Below are positions 56,989 to 64,000 of a DNA stretch of 64,000 nucleotides, piece after piece; position 1 is the first letter of the stretch, and each line of letters begins with the position of its first letter. A program made the translations under genes and the position numbers. Source of the DNA: Marinobacter shengliensis (GTDB taxonomy: Bacteria; Pseudomonadota; Gammaproteobacteria; Pseudomonadales; Oleiphilaceae); NCBI RefSeq assembly GCF_003007715.1, contig NZ_PXNO01000021.1:248001-312000 (forward strand). The letters are read 5' to 3'. The notes under the pieces were generated by a model. That model saw only the letters and a list, made by a program, of their open reading frames with translations, made no database searches and was not told the DNA's origin.

Positions 56989-58398
56989 TCAGGGCTTGGC
57001 GGAGAGTTTTACCGTCATCGCACTGTAGCCGCGTACAAAATTGGACTGAACGTACTCGGGCTCTGCCAAAACTTCAATACGGTCAAAGCGTTTCAGTATT
57101 TCCTCCCATAAGATCCTGAGCTGCAATTCTGCCAGGCGGTTACCCATGCAGCGGTGCACGCCGAAACCGAAGGAAAGATGCTTACGCACGTTTTTCCGAT
57201 CAATAATGAACTGGTCCGGGTCTTGCTCGAAGGCCCGCTCATCCCGATTGCCCGAGGCGTACCACATAACCACCTTGTCACCCTGTTTGATGGTCTGGCC
57301 GTTGAGTGTTACGTCCTGTTTGGCCACTCGGCGCATGTAGGCCAGGGGTGTTTGCCAGCGGATGATTTCCGACACCATATTGGGAATCAGCTCGGGATTC
57401 TGTTTGAGTTTTGTGAACTCGTCCGGAAACTGGTTAAGCGCCAGCACGCCGCCGGTCATGGAATTACGGGTGGTGTCGTTGCCGCCAATGATCAGCAGCA
57501 CCATATTGCCCATAAACTCCATGGGGCGATTGATCATATCTCGGGTGTCCTCGTTGGCCAGCAGCAAGCTGATCAGATCGAATCCGGTTTCTTCGCCGGC
57601 CGCTTTCCGTGCCTCCTTTTCTCGCCACAACAACGACATCTGCTGCGCCATATCGGCGGCCGCCCGGAAAAACTCGTCACGGTTGGCGTGCCCTCCGGTG
57701 GATTCCGGGGCGCCGGAGGCCACATCCGACCAGTAAGCGAGTTTGTGACGTAGCTCGAAGGGGAAATCGAACAGGGTGGCCAGCATACGGGAAGTGAGTT
57801 CAACCGATACCCGTTGTACCCAGTCAAAGGGTTCGTCCACCGGCAGCTGGTCCAGCACATCGGCTGTGCGGCTGCGAATCAGCGCCTCCATTTGCGCCAG
57901 GTTTTTCGGTGCTACCACACCCTGCACAGCCTGGCGCTGGGCATCGTGCCTGGGTGGGTCCATGGCAATAAAGGTTTCGATTTCCAGCCCTTCAGGCTGG
58001 GGGCCAATGGAAATGATGGGCTCGGCGGAGAACAGGTCATGGCGGGTATCCACAAACATGATGTCCTCGTAGCGGGTGATCGACCAGAACGGGCCGAACG
58101 GGCTCTGTTTCTGGAAGTGCACCGGGCACTCATCCCGCAACCGCTTGAAATAGGAAACCCAGAGGCCTTGCCGGTACAGAAACGGATTGCTCAGGTCGAT
58201 GTCTTGTAACGCAAGAGTGGATACATCGGGTAATGGGACTTCATTGAACACCGGCACTTCGCGGCTCCTGCCGGTACGCTGCTTGATGCTCTGAATAGCA
58301 TGAGCGCCACGGACTTGCCAATGAACAGGAATAACCGCCGCAGCCTTATCCATAACCGGCTTCAGGGCAGGCTCAATCAGTGAATTCAGCAGGTTCAT
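56989..58398 (-). CDS. cyp153A: Cytochrome P450 alkane hydroxylase, CYP153 family
   Basis: This 469-residue soluble P450 oxidises the terminal carbon of medium-chain alkanes or fatty acids. The heme-binding loop FGFGVHRCMGNRLAELQ near residue 415 holds the axial Cys, and the I-helix LLIIGGNDTTRNSM carries the acid-threonine pair. LEIETFIAMDPPRHDAQR and MVSEIIRWQTPLAYMRRVAK are CYP153 blocks. Family resemblance to Marinobacter CYP153A is strong. The ferredoxin gene lies just upstream in the same unit. No ferredoxin reductase follows, and the next gene on the strand is a murein hydrolase. Confidence 0.95.
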   Translation of the reverse strand: MNLLNSLIEPALKPVMDKAAAVIPVHWQVRGAHAIQSIKQRTGRSREVPVFNEVPLPDVSTLALQDIDLSNPFLYRQGLWVSYFKRLRDECPVHFQKQSPFGPFWSITRYEDIMFVDTRHDLFSAEPIISIGPQPEGLEIETFIAMDPPRHDAQRQAVQGVVAPKNLAQMEALIRSRTADVLDQLPVDEPFDWVQRVSVELTSRMLATLFDFPFELRHKLAYWSDVASGAPESTGGHANRDEFFRAAADMAQQMSLLWREKEARKAAGEETGFDLISLLLANEDTRDMINRPMEFMGNMVLLIIGGNDTTRNSMTGGVLALNQFPDEFTKLKQNPELIPNMVSEIIRWQTPLAYMRRVAKQDVTLNGQTIKQGDKVVMWYASGNRDERAFEQDPDQFIIDRKNVRKHLSFGFGVHRCMGNRLAELQLRILWEEILKRFDRIEVLAEPEYVQSNFVRGYSAMTVKLSAKP

Positions 58399-58473
58399 AG
58401 GATACCTCGGTTAACACAGTTGTTTCGTTATTGCCGGCGCGGGTAAGCCGACATGCAGCAGAGTTCTTGTGGA

Positions 58474-58794
58474 TTACATCTGAAACTCGGGCAGGCGCAC
58501 GATCAGGCCATCCAGGGCCTCCGAGACGGTGATCTGACAAGACAGGCGTGAGGTATCGGCTTTTTCGGGCGTGAGACCCAGCATGCCCTGCTCATCGGCG
58601 TTGATGTTGCCGGTGGCCTGAATCCAGTCGTGATCAACAATTACATGGCAGGTGCCACAGGCGCAGGCGCCGCCACAATCCGCGTCTATTCCCGGGATGC
58701 CGTTATCAACGGCGGTCTGCATCAGCGTTTGGCCTGCGGCAATCTCGACCACATGTGCGGCACCGTTGTGTTCAATAAATGTAATCTGACCCAT
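58474..58794 (-). CDS. Adrenodoxin-type [2Fe-2S] ferredoxin of the P450 system
   Basis: This 106-residue ferredoxin delivers single electrons to the P450. Cluster ligands are in CGGACACGTCHVIVDHDW near residue 39, with the last Cys in SRLSCQITV. It lies 75 nt upstream of the CYP153 gene on the same strand and is divergent from the AraC regulator. The reductase that feeds it is not in the window. Confidence 0.94.
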   Translation of the reverse strand: MGQITFIEHNGAAHVVEIAAGQTLMQTAVDNGIPGIDADCGGACACGTCHVIVDHDWIQATGNINADEQGMLGLTPEKADTSRLSCQITVSEALDGLIVRLPEFQM

Positions 58795-58953
58795 ACGCGT
58801 TTCACCTCTGTTGTTTTTGGAGTGGTTTCAGTGGAAGCCAGATTACGATCAGCGATGTTCGGGTGGCAGGTCATTAATTGACAGCGAGGGGTCATTTAAA
58901 GACACTCAAGGTGTGCGCCGGTCTTCAGGCGCTCACTCAAGGACACAAGAATA

Positions 58954-59991
58954 ATGATGCGCGACATTGACCTGAGCCAGCCGTGTATTCCCTCCAATTA
59001 CAGCCGACTGATTGCCCGGGAGTTGGCTTTACAAACCCGCGATGTCCCGGATTTGCTGGCGATGACCCAGCTGACAGTGGATCAGTTTCTGCAGGAGGAC
59101 ACTCTGCTGACCCCGCAACAGCAATTGCAGATACTGGATAACAGTTTGCAGCTGGCTAATGACGATACCTTCGGATTGCGCCTGGGCCGGCGGCTGACGT
59201 CGCCTACCCACGGTGCCATGGGGTTTCTGGTCAACAGCAGCCCGGACCTGCTGACTGCCATTCGGGCTTTTCAGGTCTTCCTGCCAACCCGCATGAACCT
59301 GGCCCGCCTTGAGATGGCCGCCAGGGACAACTGGTTGGAGGTGACTTGCCGCTTTCATGTGGAATTGTCGGAATCACTTTTAAAGGTTCTGAGTGAGAGC
59401 TTTGCGGTGATCTTCTTTGATTGTGCGGAATTTATTGTGGGCCGACCGGTGGGGGAGGTGGTATGCGGGTTTCTGCACAAGGAGCCTGGGTACAGCCATT
59501 GCTACGCGGACTACATTCCGGGTTCGATAACGTTTGGCGCAACCTCACTCGCGCTGAACATTCCGCTCGACGTGTGCAAGGTGCCCAATGCGTCCGCCAA
59601 CCATGAGAACTACATGATGGCGCTGAAGCAGTGTGAATGCATGCTGGCGCAATTGCAGTCCGACCGTGAGAGCTGCAAATACCGGGTACAGAAAATGATG
59701 CTGTCTCATCCGCCCGGGGTGTTGACTGAAGAAGAGGCCGCCGCCGCGCTGTTTATCTGCAAGCGCACGTTGGCGAGAAGATTGAAAGCGGAAGGCGCCA
59801 GTTTTCGGCAATTGAGAGACGGCATTTTGTCGCAGCAGGCGATAGGCTATCTGCGGGACAGCTCGGTGTCCGTCGAGGCCATTGCGGAGTTGCTGAATTA
59901 TCACGACAGCGCGAATTTCCGGCGGGCATTCAAGCGGTGGTTTGGCGTTACACCGGACCAATATCGACGTCGTAGTGCATCGCAAACATGA
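58954..59991 (+). CDS. AraC-family regulator, probable activator of the CYP153 operon
   Basis: This 345-residue regulator has an N-terminal arabinose-binding-like domain of the OruR type at about 20-200 (LGRRLTSPTHGAMGFLVNSSPDL in part) and a C-terminal HTH_18 domain at about 240-340. The latter contains EEAAAALFICKRTLARRLK and the second helix-turn-helix EAIAELLNYHDSANFRRAF. It is divergently transcribed from the ferredoxin-P450 pair across about 160 bp, the arrangement seen for alkane-responsive regulators. The inducer is inferred, not shown. Confidence 0.9.
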   Translation: MMRDIDLSQPCIPSNYSRLIARELALQTRDVPDLLAMTQLTVDQFLQEDTLLTPQQQLQILDNSLQLANDDTFGLRLGRRLTSPTHGAMGFLVNSSPDLLTAIRAFQVFLPTRMNLARLEMAARDNWLEVTCRFHVELSESLLKVLSESFAVIFFDCAEFIVGRPVGEVVCGFLHKEPGYSHCYADYIPGSITFGATSLALNIPLDVCKVPNASANHENYMMALKQCECMLAQLQSDRESCKYRVQKMMLSHPPGVLTEEEAAAALFICKRTLARRLKAEGASFRQLRDGILSQQAIGYLRDSSVSVEAIAELLNYHDSANFRRAFKRWFGVTPDQYRRRSASQT

Positions 59992-60021
59992 TCTGTGGCC
60001 AGAGGTATTGGGCGCTTTGCT

Positions 60022-60270
60022 TCAGGCCAGGCAAATACGATAACGAATGACGCCGTTATCTTCTTCGTGGACCGATTCAATCTGGTGGCCGGTGATCTCG
60101 CACAGGGCCTGCAAATCGCGGCGGCCACTGACGTCATCCGCCAGGAATTCCACCCGGGTGCCACTGGGCAGCCCCTGGGTGCGTTTCTTGAAGCGCAAAA
60201 CCGGAAGCGGGCATACCAGACCGACAGCGTCGATCCGGTATACCTCTGCCTGGTCAGTCAAGGCGCACAC
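60022..60270 (-). CDS. TusA/YedF-like sulfur carrier protein
   Basis: This protein of about 82 residues has a TusA-like fold. The motif VGLVCPLPVLRFKK (Cys-Pro-Leu-Pro) marks the sulfur-carrying Cys. No ATG exists in frame, so the start must be GTG 60270 (preferred, AAGGCAG ahead), TTG 60261 or TTG 60306. The 5' end overlaps the 41-residue ORF before it, and both follow the formate dehydrogenase gamma gene. TusA-family proteins help sulfur transfer for molybdenum cofactor enzymes, which would suit a formate dehydrogenase operon. That link is inferred. Confidence 0.8.
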   Translation of the reverse strand: MCALTDQAEVYRIDAVGLVCPLPVLRFKKRTQGLPSGTRVEFLADDVSGRRDLQALCEITGHQIESVHEEDNGVIRYRICLA

Positions 60271-60379
60271 TCGTGGAACTGCCTTGTTCCGCAGAGGACC
60301 AGCCAAACTGGTTCAGTACCACGGGCGCACAAAAGGCAATGACCAGGGCCACGACAAACGCGGCTGCCATAACTTTCAT
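60254..60379 (-). CDS. Small membrane protein of 41 residues coupled to formate dehydrogenase gamma
   Basis: The ATG at 60379 overlaps the gamma-subunit stop as ATGA and is preceded by a strong AAAGGGGG site, so the ORF is very likely translated. The product begins MKVMAAAFVVALVIAFCAPV, a hydrophobic segment of about 20 residues forming either one membrane span or a signal peptide, followed by a short polar tail ending SVRLD. I do not recognise a family. Position implies a role in, or attachment to, the membrane-bound formate dehydrogenase. It may simply be too short for gene callers. Confidence 0.65.
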   Translation of the reverse strand: MKVMAAAFVVALVIAFCAPVVLNQFGWSSAEQGSSTSVRLD

Positions 60380-61548
60380 GATGAACCCCCTTTGCCTTGT
60401 TTCGCCTCAACCTCTTCTACCCACAGGTCGTGATGCTGGCGGGCCCATTCGCGGTCAACCTGGCCGTTGCCCATGGCATCAAACGCGCCTTCCATACCGA
60501 CAGAGCCGATGTAGATGTGGGCGATGATGGCCACCATCATGGCGAACGCAACGATAGAGTGCCAGATGTTGGCGTACTGCATCTCTTCATGGGGCGTCAG
60601 CGCAGTCGGGAAGTCGGTACCGATAACACTGTTAATAACGCTGAAGGTGCCAGCGAACATGGGCATTTCAAACGGGAACAGCAGCGACAGGCCCGACAGG
60701 GACACCGAGACGCCCAGCAGCATCACCGTCCAGAAAATGATCTTCTGGCCGGCATTGAACTTCTTGGAGGAGGGGTGGGACTTGGTGAAGATGCCACCGC
60801 CCGCCTTGATCCACTGCCAGTCGAGCTTGTTGGGTATGTTGTGCGCGACCCACATGACGAAGGTCATGACCAGGCCCAGCATAAAGGCCCAGGCGACATT
60901 ATTGTGCAACCACTTGGAACCCACGGCGAGGGTTGAATAGGCCTCGTGCCCAATCACGGGAATCAGGAAACTTCGCCCCATCAGCGTGATCAGGCCGGTC
61001 AGCGCCAGGGCGATAAACGACCCCGCCAATAACCAGTGGCCAAAGCGCTCGATGGCTTTGAATCGTTCGATCTTGGTGCCGGAAGGGCCGCCATCGATCA
61101 TGATTTTGCCGCGAACAAAGTAGAACACTACCAGCAGCAGAATGATGCCCAGAAGGGCGCCACCGCCGTAAGTGATCATGGGGCCTTCCCGGAGCTTGTA
61201 CCAGGGCATGCCGCCGTCCTGAATCAGCACATCAGCCCCCGGGCCCCTGGCCTGGGTTTTGATATCGCTCTGGTTGTAGCGGATGCCCCGCCAGACATCG
61301 GAGTCTGACACGCCGCCCCGGGTGCCCAGTTGCTCCGTGATCGGTTTGGCGTTGGCCGGGTTGCCGAGGTTTTCAGAACGGAACGACTCGTCCATTTTCA
61401 GCTGTTGCTGGCGAGCCATGATATCTTCGAGGGTTTGCGCGCCCCCGGTCGCGGTTCGATCAACCGCCGGGGCATCGCTTGCCCAGGCAGGATTAAAAAG
61501 CAGTGTCGCCATTGCAAGCAGGGCGGCACCCAATAGTTTTCGGTTCAT
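60376..61548 (-). CDS. Formate dehydrogenase gamma subunit (cytochrome b556)
   Basis: This 390-residue membrane subunit carries b-type heme and passes electrons from formate to quinone. It has an N-terminal signal-like segment ending at AWA and an extra periplasmic region of about 90 residues. One membrane span follows at about 130-150, then the four-helix cytochrome b561-type domain at about 175-360 with FKAIERFGHWLLAGSFIALALTG (first heme His) and IAHIYIGSVGMEGAFDAM near the end. It is third in the fdh operon. Length is at the large end for the family because of the N-terminal extension. Confidence 0.92.
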   Translation of the reverse strand: MNRKLLGAALLAMATLLFNPAWASDAPAVDRTATGGAQTLEDIMARQQQLKMDESFRSENLGNPANAKPITEQLGTRGGVSDSDVWRGIRYNQSDIKTQARGPGADVLIQDGGMPWYKLREGPMITYGGGALLGIILLLVVFYFVRGKIMIDGGPSGTKIERFKAIERFGHWLLAGSFIALALTGLITLMGRSFLIPVIGHEAYSTLAVGSKWLHNNVAWAFMLGLVMTFVMWVAHNIPNKLDWQWIKAGGGIFTKSHPSSKKFNAGQKIIFWTVMLLGVSVSLSGLSLLFPFEMPMFAGTFSVINSVIGTDFPTALTPHEEMQYANIWHSIVAFAMMVAIIAHIYIGSVGMEGAFDAMGNGQVDREWARQHHDLWVEEVEAKQGKGGSS

Positions 61549-61633
61549 GAGAGCGCTCCAGCGGAATGAACAAAAAGAATAAGTTATCCCGATCGATTCC
61601 GGAGCCCTGAGGCTCCGGAATCCACGGGTGAGC

Positions 61634-62242
61634 TTAAGCGCCCTTCTTCTCGTAAGCTGTGCCCCATCCCCAGGCGCCGGAACCGAAACCGCGGTTCACC
61701 ACTCGCTGGCGATAGATGTCCGAAACCGTGTTGCCATCACCGGCCAACAGGGCTTTGGTTGAGCACATTTCCGCACAGAGCGGCAACTTGCCCTCTGCAA
61801 TACGGTTGCGACCGTATTTGTTGAACTCCGTTGTTGAATGGTCTTCCTCAGGACCACCTGCACAGAACGTACACTTGTCCATCTTGCCCCGGCTGCCAAA
61901 GTTACCCGCCTGGGGGAACTGGGGCGCGCCGAAGGGGCAGGCGTAAAAGCAGTAGCCACACCCGATGCACAGGTCTTTGGAGTGCAGCACGATGCCGTCC
62001 GCCGTCTGGTAGAAGCAGTCGGTTGGGCAAACGGCCATACACGGCGCGTCTGAACAGTGCATGCAAGCTACCGAGATGGAACGCTCGCCTGGCTTGCCAT
62101 CCTCGATGGTGACCACGCGGCGGCGGTTGATGCCCCAGGGGACTTCGTGCTCGTTCTTACAGGCTGTCACGCAAGCATTACATTCGATGCAGCGCTCGGC
62201 GTCACAAAGGAATTTTGCTCTTGCTTGTCCTTCAAGTGCCAT
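61634..62242 (-). CDS. fdh3B: Formate dehydrogenase FDH3 beta subunit (four [4Fe-4S] clusters)
   Basis: This 202-residue ferredoxin-like subunit has 16 cysteines arranged for four cubane clusters: CIECNACVTACKNEH, CMHCSDAPCMAVCP, CIGCGYCFYACPFG, and the CTFC plus CAEMC pair. It links the molybdopterin alpha subunit to the membrane gamma subunit. It lies 15 nt after the alpha gene and 85 nt before the gamma gene. Length matches the FDH3 type rather than the longer FdnH type. Confidence 0.94.
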   Translation of the reverse strand: MALEGQARAKFLCDAERCIECNACVTACKNEHEVPWGINRRRVVTIEDGKPGERSISVACMHCSDAPCMAVCPTDCFYQTADGIVLHSKDLCIGCGYCFYACPFGAPQFPQAGNFGSRGKMDKCTFCAGGPEEDHSTTEFNKYGRNRIAEGKLPLCAEMCSTKALLAGDGNTVSDIYRQRVVNRGFGSGAWGWGTAYEKKGA

Positions 62243-62257
62243 GGTCTACACCTCTTG

Positions 62258-64000
62258 TTATGCTGGTTCGATGGCACACAGGGTGCACTTGGTCTCTTGC
62301 ATCTGCGTGACCGAGTCGTACCCGTATGTCTGAACGGTGTTTGTGGATTCACCCAACACGATCGGATCGGCACCCTCAGGGTATTTATGCCGACGATCCT
62401 CGCCTTGCAGGTGACCGCCGAAGTGGAACGGCATGAAGGCCACGCCTTCGCCAACCCTTTCGGTAACCATTGCTTTTACCTTGATGCGCGCGCCCTCCGG
62501 GCCAGACACCCAGACATCCCTGCCATCGCGAATGTTCAAGTTATTGGCGTCGCGTGGATTCACCTCTATGAACATGTCTTGCTGGAGTTCTGCCAGCCAG
62601 GGGTTTGACCGGGTTTCGTCGCCGCCACCTTCGTATTCCACCAGTCGGCCAGAAGTCAGAATGATGGGGAAGTCCTTGCTGAAGTCGTTCTTCTGAATCG
62701 ACTCGTACATGGTCGGCACACGCCAGAAGGTCTTGTCGGCGTAAGTCGGGTAGTCTTCCACCAGGTCGCGACGGTTGGTGTAAAGCGGTTCGCGGTGCAG
62801 TGGCACCGGGTCCGGGAAGTTCCAGACAATGGCGCGGGCCTTGGCGTTACCGAAGGGTGCGCACTCGTGCTTGATCGCCACACGCTGGATACCGCCAGAC
62901 AGATCGGTTTTCCAGTTGGCTTCCGGTCCGCCAACCGCGTCGATGGCCGCACGCTCTTCGGCAGTTAGATCGCCGTCCCAGCCAAGGTCCATCAGCATCT
63001 GCATGGTGAATTCCGGGTAGCCGTCCTTGATTTCCGAATCCTTGGAGTAAACCCCTTCAGCCAGCAGGTTCTCACCGTTACGCTCAACACCAAATCGGGC
63101 CCGGAAGGTCAGGCCGCCCTTGGATACCGGCAACGACATATCGTACAGGTTGGCGGTGCCCGGATGGTTCATCTCCGGGGTACCCCAGCACGGCCATGGC
63201 AAACCATAGTAATCACCATCGCAGGGCCCACCCACTGCGCGCAGGGTGGTTTTGTCAAAGTGATGTTGATTGGCCATATGCAGCTTGAGCCGCTCAGGAG
63301 ACTGGCCGGTATACCCGATGGTCCACATGCCACGGTTGAACTCGCGGGTGATGTCTTCAATTACCGGCTCGTCGCCTTCAATGGCGATGTTGCGGAACAT
63401 ACGATCAGTGAAGCCAAACTTGTCCGCAAACAGTTTGATGATTTCATGATCCACCTTGGAGTCGAACAGCGGCTCCATCACTTTCTCACGCCATTGCAAT
63501 GAACGGTTGGAGGCGGTGACCGAACCCGTCGTTTCGAACTGCGTGGTTGTCGGCAGCAGGTAGGCGCCGTCTGTCCGGTCATGCAATACGGCAGACACGG
63601 TCGGGAAAGGATCCACCACAACCAGCAGGTCGAGTTTCTCCATGGCTTCCTTCATTTCCAGCATACGGGTCTGTGAGTTGGGTGCGTGGCCCCACAACAC
63701 CATGGCTCGGGTGTTGTCCGGTTGTTCCAGGTTCTCCTTTGCTTCCAGAACGCCGTCAATCCAGCGAGACACTGGAATGCCTTTTTCATACATCATGGCG
63801 CGGGATTTTCCGTCTTTGTCCCAGGTGGCAAAACGACCTTTCAGCCAGTCCAGGTCCTCTTCCCAGACCCGCGCCCAGTGTGCCCAGGAACCGGCGGCAA
63901 CGCCGTAATAGCCTGGCAGACTGTCGGCGACTACGCCGAAGTCGGTAGCGCCCTGCACGTTGTCGTGGCCACGGAAGATATTGGTGCCGCCACCGGTAAC
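62258..64000 (-). CDS. Formate dehydrogenase alpha (molybdopterin) subunit, partial
   Basis: The C-terminal 580 residues of the catalytic subunit are present; the reading frame runs through the right edge of the window, so the N-terminus, the [4Fe-4S] site and the active-site Cys or Sec lie outside. The visible part starts GGGTNIFRGHDNVQGATDFG and includes VLWGHAPNSQTRMLEMKEAM, VDPFPTVSA and the C-terminal molybdopterin dinucleotide-binding domain (PIILTSGRLVEYEGGGDETRS, VEVNPRDANNLNIRDG in part). It ends in a CTLCAIEPA tail. It oxidises formate to carbon dioxide. Confidence 0.95.
   Translation of the reverse strand, partial: VTGGGTNIFRGHDNVQGATDFGVVADSLPGYYGVAAGSWAHWARVWEEDLDWLKGRFATWDKDGKSRAMMYEKGIPVSRWIDGVLEAKENLEQPDNTRAMVLWGHAPNSQTRMLEMKEAMEKLDLLVVVDPFPTVSAVLHDRTDGAYLLPTTTQFETTGSVTASNRSLQWREKVMEPLFDSKVDHEIIKLFADKFGFTDRMFRNIAIEGDEPVIEDITREFNRGMWTIGYTGQSPERLKLHMANQHHFDKTTLRAVGGPCDGDYYGLPWPCWGTPEMNHPGTANLYDMSLPVSKGGLTFRARFGVERNGENLLAEGVYSKDSEIKDGYPEFTMQMLMDLGWDGDLTAEERAAIDAVGGPEANWKTDLSGGIQRVAIKHECAPFGNAKARAIVWNFPDPVPLHREPLYTNRRDLVEDYPTYADKTFWRVPTMYESIQKNDFSKDFPIILTSGRLVEYEGGGDETRSNPWLAELQQDMFIEVNPRDANNLNIRDGRDVWVSGPEGARIKVKAMVTERVGEGVAFMPFHFGGHLQGEDRRHKYPEGADPIVLGESTNTVQTYGYDSVTQMQETKCTLCAIEPA

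Follow-up and report, generated by a model that had tools for sequence, protein, structure and literature searches.

The closest described counterparts of the small protein studied here are CydX of cytochrome bd and CioY: like it, they are short single-helix membrane proteins whose genes lie beside those of a respiratory membrane enzyme, although their enzyme is an oxidase and ours a formate dehydrogenase. For Campylobacter jejuni CioY, the relevant parts of the published report describe modelling that strongly supports its placement on CioA as that of CydX on CydA, and reciprocal co-immunoprecipitation was performed (PMC11955535).

Among formate dehydrogenases, the gamma subunit of our locus shares a homologous core with that of Escherichia coli formate dehydrogenase-N (FdnGHI, 1kqf; phmmer E 2e-17), with a Foldseek E-value of 1.6e-9 against 1kqf_C, and 1kqf was the only PDB match to this gamma at E below 0.001. 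No small fourth subunit is known in E. coli FdnGHI, where a C-terminal helix of FdnH anchors the beta subunit. The alpha and beta subunits match those of Shewanella oneidensis FdhAB (9VAP) at E-values of 1e-246 and 2e-98, and 9VAP was the sole FDH3-type structure among the PDB matches. In the parts of its report used here, the structure is called SoFdhAB after FdhA and FdhB, and the enzyme is reported to tolerate oxygen fully and to be of interest for CO2/formate chemistry (PMC13397495).

The window, by which we mean the whole 64,000-nucleotide stretch of Marinobacter shengliensis DNA analysed, ends within an operon that its profile matches identify as that of an FDH3-type formate dehydrogenase. 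Judging from their subunits, such enzymes presumably perform respiratory formate oxidation. The relevant features are the following:

60022..60261, minus strand: gene of a TusA-like sulfurtransferase that contains a CPLP stretch (Pfam TusA; TTG start at 60261)
60254..60379, minus strand: gene of the predicted 41-residue membrane protein (ATG 60377-60379, stop 60254-60256)
60376..61548, minus strand: FDH3-type gamma subunit FdhC with a cytochrome b561 domain (Pfam/NCBIfam match)
60386..60393, minus strand: ribosome-binding sequence AAAGGGGG, six bases upstream of the ATG and within the gamma gene's 3' end
61634..62242, minus strand: FDH3 beta subunit, 4Fe-4S (NF038355)
62258..64000, minus strand: FDH3 alpha subunit, molybdopterin (continues past the window end)

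The small frame (MKVMAAAFVVALVIAFCAPVVLNQFGWSSAEQGSSTSVRLD) had been proposed in a preliminary description that named no strand; it lies on the minus strand with exactly the bounds and the 41 residues given there. The translational signals claimed for it also held up. The bases ATGA are common to the gamma stop codon (TGA, 60376-60378) and the ATG of the small frame, the ribosome site stands six bases ahead of the ATG, and the 3' end overlaps the TusA-like gene by 8 bases with the TTG start at 60261, and by more with an earlier start, an in-frame TTG being present at 60306. A purine-rich site ahead of the start was found in most of 60 relatives (upstream 21 bases, 60 of 77 loci). No RNA family from Rfam was detected in 59990-61700.

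Both neighboring subunits exceeded their curated cut-offs, the gamma with 136.8 bits against TIGR01583 (formate dehydrogenase gamma; cut-off 115.85) and the beta with 347.3 bits against NF038355 (FDH3_beta; cut-off 240). The gamma begins with a signal-like helix, a segment of about 100 residues and an extra hydrophobic helix at residues 124-142, followed by the cytochrome b561 domain. Since AlphaFold modelled this gamma with medium quality (mean pLDDT 64.6, residues 19-123 below 50), we build no claim on the extra N-terminal segment. A hydropathy scan found no hydrophobic helix in the beta subunit, whose best stretch of similarity to FdnH covers residues 85-164 of the 294-residue 1kqf_B. On the other side, Marinobacter-type loci have the TusA-like gene with its CPLP stretch as the last gene of the FDH3 operon; the TusA-like product could supply sulfur for formate dehydrogenase maturation, which we offer as an idea only. 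Genes for a P450, a 2Fe-2S ferredoxin and an AraC-type regulator adjoin the operon (window 56989-59991).

Substitution patterns leave us nearly certain that the small frame is a genuine gene under purifying selection. Among 40 Marinobacter-type copies (the window and 39 of the 40 loci L031-L070 with a match), the pooled pN/pS was 0.25 (pS 0.558, pN 0.141), and differences at codon positions 1, 2 and 3 numbered 5338, 4226 and 13431. The start codon was ATG in 14 of these copies and GTG in 26. Across 79 copies, in which the sense frame is open by construction, the alternative forward frames were open in 0 and 12 copies and the reverse frames in 42, 35 and 9.

To follow the frame in relatives, we fetched loci by the gamma subunit, taking the best 80 of at least 582 confirmed relatives in GTDB genomes; among the matches listed, the closest named relatives were from Marinobacter, with 92% identity. 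The preliminary description had named non-conservation of the frame as one ground for refutation, and the frame was present at 79 of the 80 loci, in one of them disrupted (L100, in a metagenome assembly); the 80th locus (L066) ends inside the gamma gene. A profile of the small protein matched 109 of 110 loci; since 30 of the 110 had entered the set through the small protein, 79/80 is the fair figure. Two contigs labelled Rhodopirellula (MED697; L058) and Halomonas (SAT58; L062) carry Marinobacter-like formate dehydrogenase loci and are perhaps mis-binned metagenome contigs.

We then asked how the gene is distributed across whole genomes. Within the genus, the small gene (E below 1e-10) and the FDH3 beta gene each occurred in 39 of 61 genomes, and the 39 were identical; 15 further matches at E 0.1 to 1, in frames of 136 codons or more, were rejected as background. 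In a phylum-wide sample of 398 genomes, 61 of which have FDH3 beta, a first profile (A1) identified 17 genomes at E up to 1e-4, every one of them with FDH3 beta, and eight further genomes at E 1e-4 to 0.01, four with FDH3 (G354, G398, G217, G095) and four without. The FDH3 surroundings were read in 38 of the 61 genomes (40 loci), and related small proteins were found in Rhizobiales-like genomes, some of them longer and many with a tail resembling A-R-V-G-D-P-G.

These proteins and the 41-residue type, whose tail ends in V-R-L-D, appear to form one family. Aligned with hhalign, the two profiles (A3, 53 sequences; A5, 12 sequences) matched with a probability of 97.2 and an E-value of 3e-11 over 44 columns, with Arg39 aligned; some members were weak by single-sequence profile search (E 0.03 for L189 and 0.4 for L193). 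Both groups are encoded near FDH3, within 14.2 kb of beta in 30 of 30 genomes, part of the seeds for this co-location test having been taken from such regions.

A joint profile (A2), partly seeded from FDH3 neighborhoods and thus able to miss distant relatives elsewhere, matched 30 of the 398 genomes at E below 0.001, each of which has FDH3. Because of this seeding, the informative part of the result is that no match at E below 0.001 was found in the 337 genomes without FDH3 beta. At the same threshold, 31 of the 61 FDH3 genomes had no match, the gene being absent from FDH3 lineages that have other types of gamma. Eleven more genomes at E 0.001-0.01, among which only G387 has FDH3, were rejected as background, since their matches were partial and the frames that hold them ranged from 58 to 727 codons. 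In all 30 carriers the small gene lies on the contig of FDH3 beta, within 14.2 kb: downstream on the same strand by up to 1.6 kb, leaving space for the gamma only, in 11 genomes and by 2.2-5.1 kb in 12, on the opposite strand in 6, and upstream on the same strand in 1.

A denser sample of 149 genomes from a Rhodobacteraceae-like family gave the same pattern: 63 genomes have the small protein (E up to 1e-4), 75 have FDH3 beta, and all 63 fall within the 75. By a reading of two tables, 61 of the 63 carriers have the gene on the beta contig, with a gap to beta of 1.2-4.6 kb in 58 of the 61 and the other three measured in the phylum-wide sample; the two without beta on the same contig are G514, discussed below, and G551, where the gamma and the small gene occupy a 5.4-kb contig of a fragmented assembly. 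The frames of the matches reach 371 codons in a frame-length screen for fusion to the gamma, for which L237 alone was inspected individually. Hypergeometric values computed for the co-occurrence of the small gene with FDH3 take no account of kinship among the genomes or of linkage within the operon, and serve as description only. Linkage of the small gene to FDH3 was thus exclusive in the genomes searched, and we regard it as near certain. The preliminary description had tied the small membrane protein to formate dehydrogenase, and with the frame conserved at 79/80 loci and its presence matching FDH3 genome by genome, a partnership with the enzyme is well supported on comparative grounds.

To resolve which subunit the gene follows, we inferred a tree of 67 gamma sequences, 25 from the 80 fetched loci and 42 from the FDH3 regions read, labelling the small gene as present when it lay in the locus (with the exception of L197, where it is 14 kb off on the same contig). 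One gamma clade, with support of 100/99, contains all 39 carrier rows and one of the 28 non-carrier rows, while the other 27 non-carriers fall outside it. The sole absence inside the clade (L190) is the second FDH3 copy in G257, a genome in which the gene accompanies the other copy. The carrier clade and two sequences (L194/L195) meet on long branches, which is a caveat to the tree.

The genome G514 separates the subunits. On one of its contigs (C51) the small gene accompanies the gamma and a WD40/cytochrome c gene, and neither alpha nor beta was matched within 14 kb; alpha and beta are on another (C12), where 14 kb gave no match to gamma. Twelve FDH3 genomes in the Rhodobacteraceae-like family gave no match in the family-wide search; of these, eight have gammas only 33-38% identical to that of the window, and in one the gamma matches over part of its length at 43%. 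In another of the 12 (G506), the region encodes a divergent small protein (E 1.4e-5). Near the gammas of G511 (54% identical) and G557 (46%) no small gene match was found, and these two genomes seem truly to be without the gene there. The tree, G514 and the gamma identities of the non-carriers together argue that the small gene tracks a type of gamma, with rare losses, and its absence beside related gammas in L190, G511 and G557 indicates that it is not indispensable everywhere. The FDH3 gammas of marine gammaproteobacteria, including Marinobacter, sit among alphaproteobacterial ones in the tree, and this mixed placement suggests that the operon may have moved between the classes together with the small gene.

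The protein itself has one hydrophobic helix. The hydrophobic N-terminus noted in the preliminary description appears in the hydropathy scan as a peak at residues 3-21 (KD19 2.77), and AlphaFold2 predicted a helix at residues 2-25, with pLDDT about 90 over residues 1-20 and a low-confidence tail (block means 52-66). The C-terminal tail is conserved, with the pattern G-[WFY]-S ... V-R-L-D. Across 53 sequences, M1 and R39 never vary, and conservation reaches 90% or more at K2, F8, A18, L22, G26, S28, V38 and L40. With weighting, six positions of the helix stand out, A7, F8, I14, A15, A18 and L22, and their spacing is helical; the periodicity of conservation gave permutation p-values of 0.016, 0.025 and 0.06 for three window choices, with best angles of 100, 100 and 80 degrees. 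This weak signal is suggestive of a single conserved helix face (A7/F8, I14/A15, A18, L22). As position 2 is positively charged, the protein is predicted to be oriented N-in/C-out, with the short tail in the periplasm.

Family searches returned no named relative. At E up to 1, the 41-mer matched no family in Pfam or NCBIfam. All matches of five related small proteins to these databases fell below the curated cut-offs, and the unrelated families concerned were rejected. Profile searches of the PDB gave no credible match, with best E-values of 3 (A1) and 0.45 (A2) for partial helix matches. The tblastn search of the 41-mer against the PLSDB plasmids found nothing, although the gamma search shows homologues there, the 41-mer being too short and divergent. 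RefSeq lists homologues as "hypothetical protein" in the four Roseobacteraceae plasmid records that we opened among 68 found, and all four match the family profile at E 2e-17 or better. The description of the gene as overlooked was therefore partly right: it belongs to no named family, but some homologues are annotated, without a name. No account of the small protein was recognized among the literature matches listed, in a search that covered few subscription journals and no bioRxiv preprints. A profile of the protein can serve as a search tool for genes annotated merely as hypothetical.

What kind of partner is it? A single hydrophobic helix encoded beside a cytochrome b subunit is the arrangement of the CydX kind, and we regard the proteins as a new family of a known kind, the small single-helix partners of respiratory complexes. 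Homology to CydX was not found, since Pfam gave nothing for the 41-residue protein at E up to 1. Nor did Pfam or NCBIfam, at the same limit, give a family match that would make it an FdnH-type anchor on a separate chain; the helix of FdnH has the orientation opposite to the N-in one predicted here. The best reading is by analogy that the small protein works like CydX of cytochrome bd, in putative contact with the gamma. One helix face (A7/F8, I14/A15, A18, L22) would pack against the cytochrome b gamma, the tail (G-[WFY]-S ... V-R-L-D) would lie at the periplasmic gamma/beta junction, and the protein at this junction would assemble or stabilize the complex, as CydX does for cytochrome bd. An accessory subunit fits the conservation of the helix with the gamma type and the invariant arginine in the short tail.

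We thus consider it probable that this is a real single-span inner-membrane protein that belongs to the FDH3 membrane module and helps to assemble or stabilize the complex; we infer membership of the complex, contact with the gamma and the stabilizing role from the comparative evidence. A more specific proposal, which we hold tentatively and at slightly less than even chances, is that the enzymes of a whole FDH3 clade, present in both alphaproteobacteria and marine gammaproteobacteria, consist of four subunits, and that the fourth, of about 41 residues, moves with the gamma and secures its contact with the periplasmic FdhAB, the beta having no membrane helix. FDH3-type enzymes were found here in many marine bacteria. 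If the protein is a true subunit, leaving it out of preparations or expression constructs of this clade may yield an incomplete enzyme, and a structure that is membrane-complete should contain it.

In the main rival reading the protein serves FDH3 as a dedicated factor for membrane assembly or maturation and stays outside the finished enzyme, for example by bringing haem into the gamma or docking the Tat-exported FdhAB. Genomic linkage would be equal for such a factor and for a subunit, and the gene at times lies kilobases off or on the opposite strand (6 of 30), as fits accessory genes better than subunit genes; four plasmid FDH3 clusters also contain accessory genes of the DUF3305, DUF3306 and TorD families. 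Set against this, the small gene often stands right behind the gamma, in G514 it is with the gamma and away from alpha and beta, and the protein has no maturation domain recognizable by Pfam or NCBIfam. We judge an assembly factor unlikely, at about one chance in four.

Considerably less probable is some other role in the FDH3 cluster, such as linking the enzyme to an adjacent c-type cytochrome or other electron carrier, or regulating it. Several alphaproteobacterial loci have a c-type cytochrome gene between the gamma and the small gene (L102:5131-6441; L204, L205, L236), the two scanned (L102 and L236) being WD40-repeat/cytochrome c fusions, and in G514 the cytochrome gene stays with the gamma and the small gene. 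Against this, the small gene follows the gamma directly, with no cytochrome gene intervening, at Marinobacter-type loci and in two of the four plasmid records.

We find it very improbable that translation of the frame matters and its product does not, ribosomes being carried from the gamma to the TusA-like gene. In the window the ATGA overlap upstream and the TTGACTGA overlap downstream would suit such coupling, but the amino-acid sequence is under selection, a sigma-54-type regulator replaces TusA after the small gene in all five alphaproteobacterial loci opened for content, and the gene is inverted or kilobases off in several genomes; a gene that survives relocation, inversion and the absence of TusA fits a coupling function poorly. 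That the frame is open by chance within conserved DNA, as its shortness and its lack of a Pfam or NCBIfam entry might suggest, is in effect refuted by the pN/pS of 0.25, the excess of third-position changes and the distant homologues at differing genomic positions in alpha- and gammaproteobacteria.

Some other FDH3 loci have other genes behind the gamma. In two families without the small protein (f11/f20; L169, L172, L174, L176, L181, L183), a secreted-looking protein of 95-131 residues with a K-L-P-like mature start is encoded directly behind the gamma; the first 110 residues of that in L169 had no Pfam match. In a further family (f4), the gamma is followed by DUF1244, called by Pfam for L164 (E 1e-34) and by resemblance for L166, L167 and L168.
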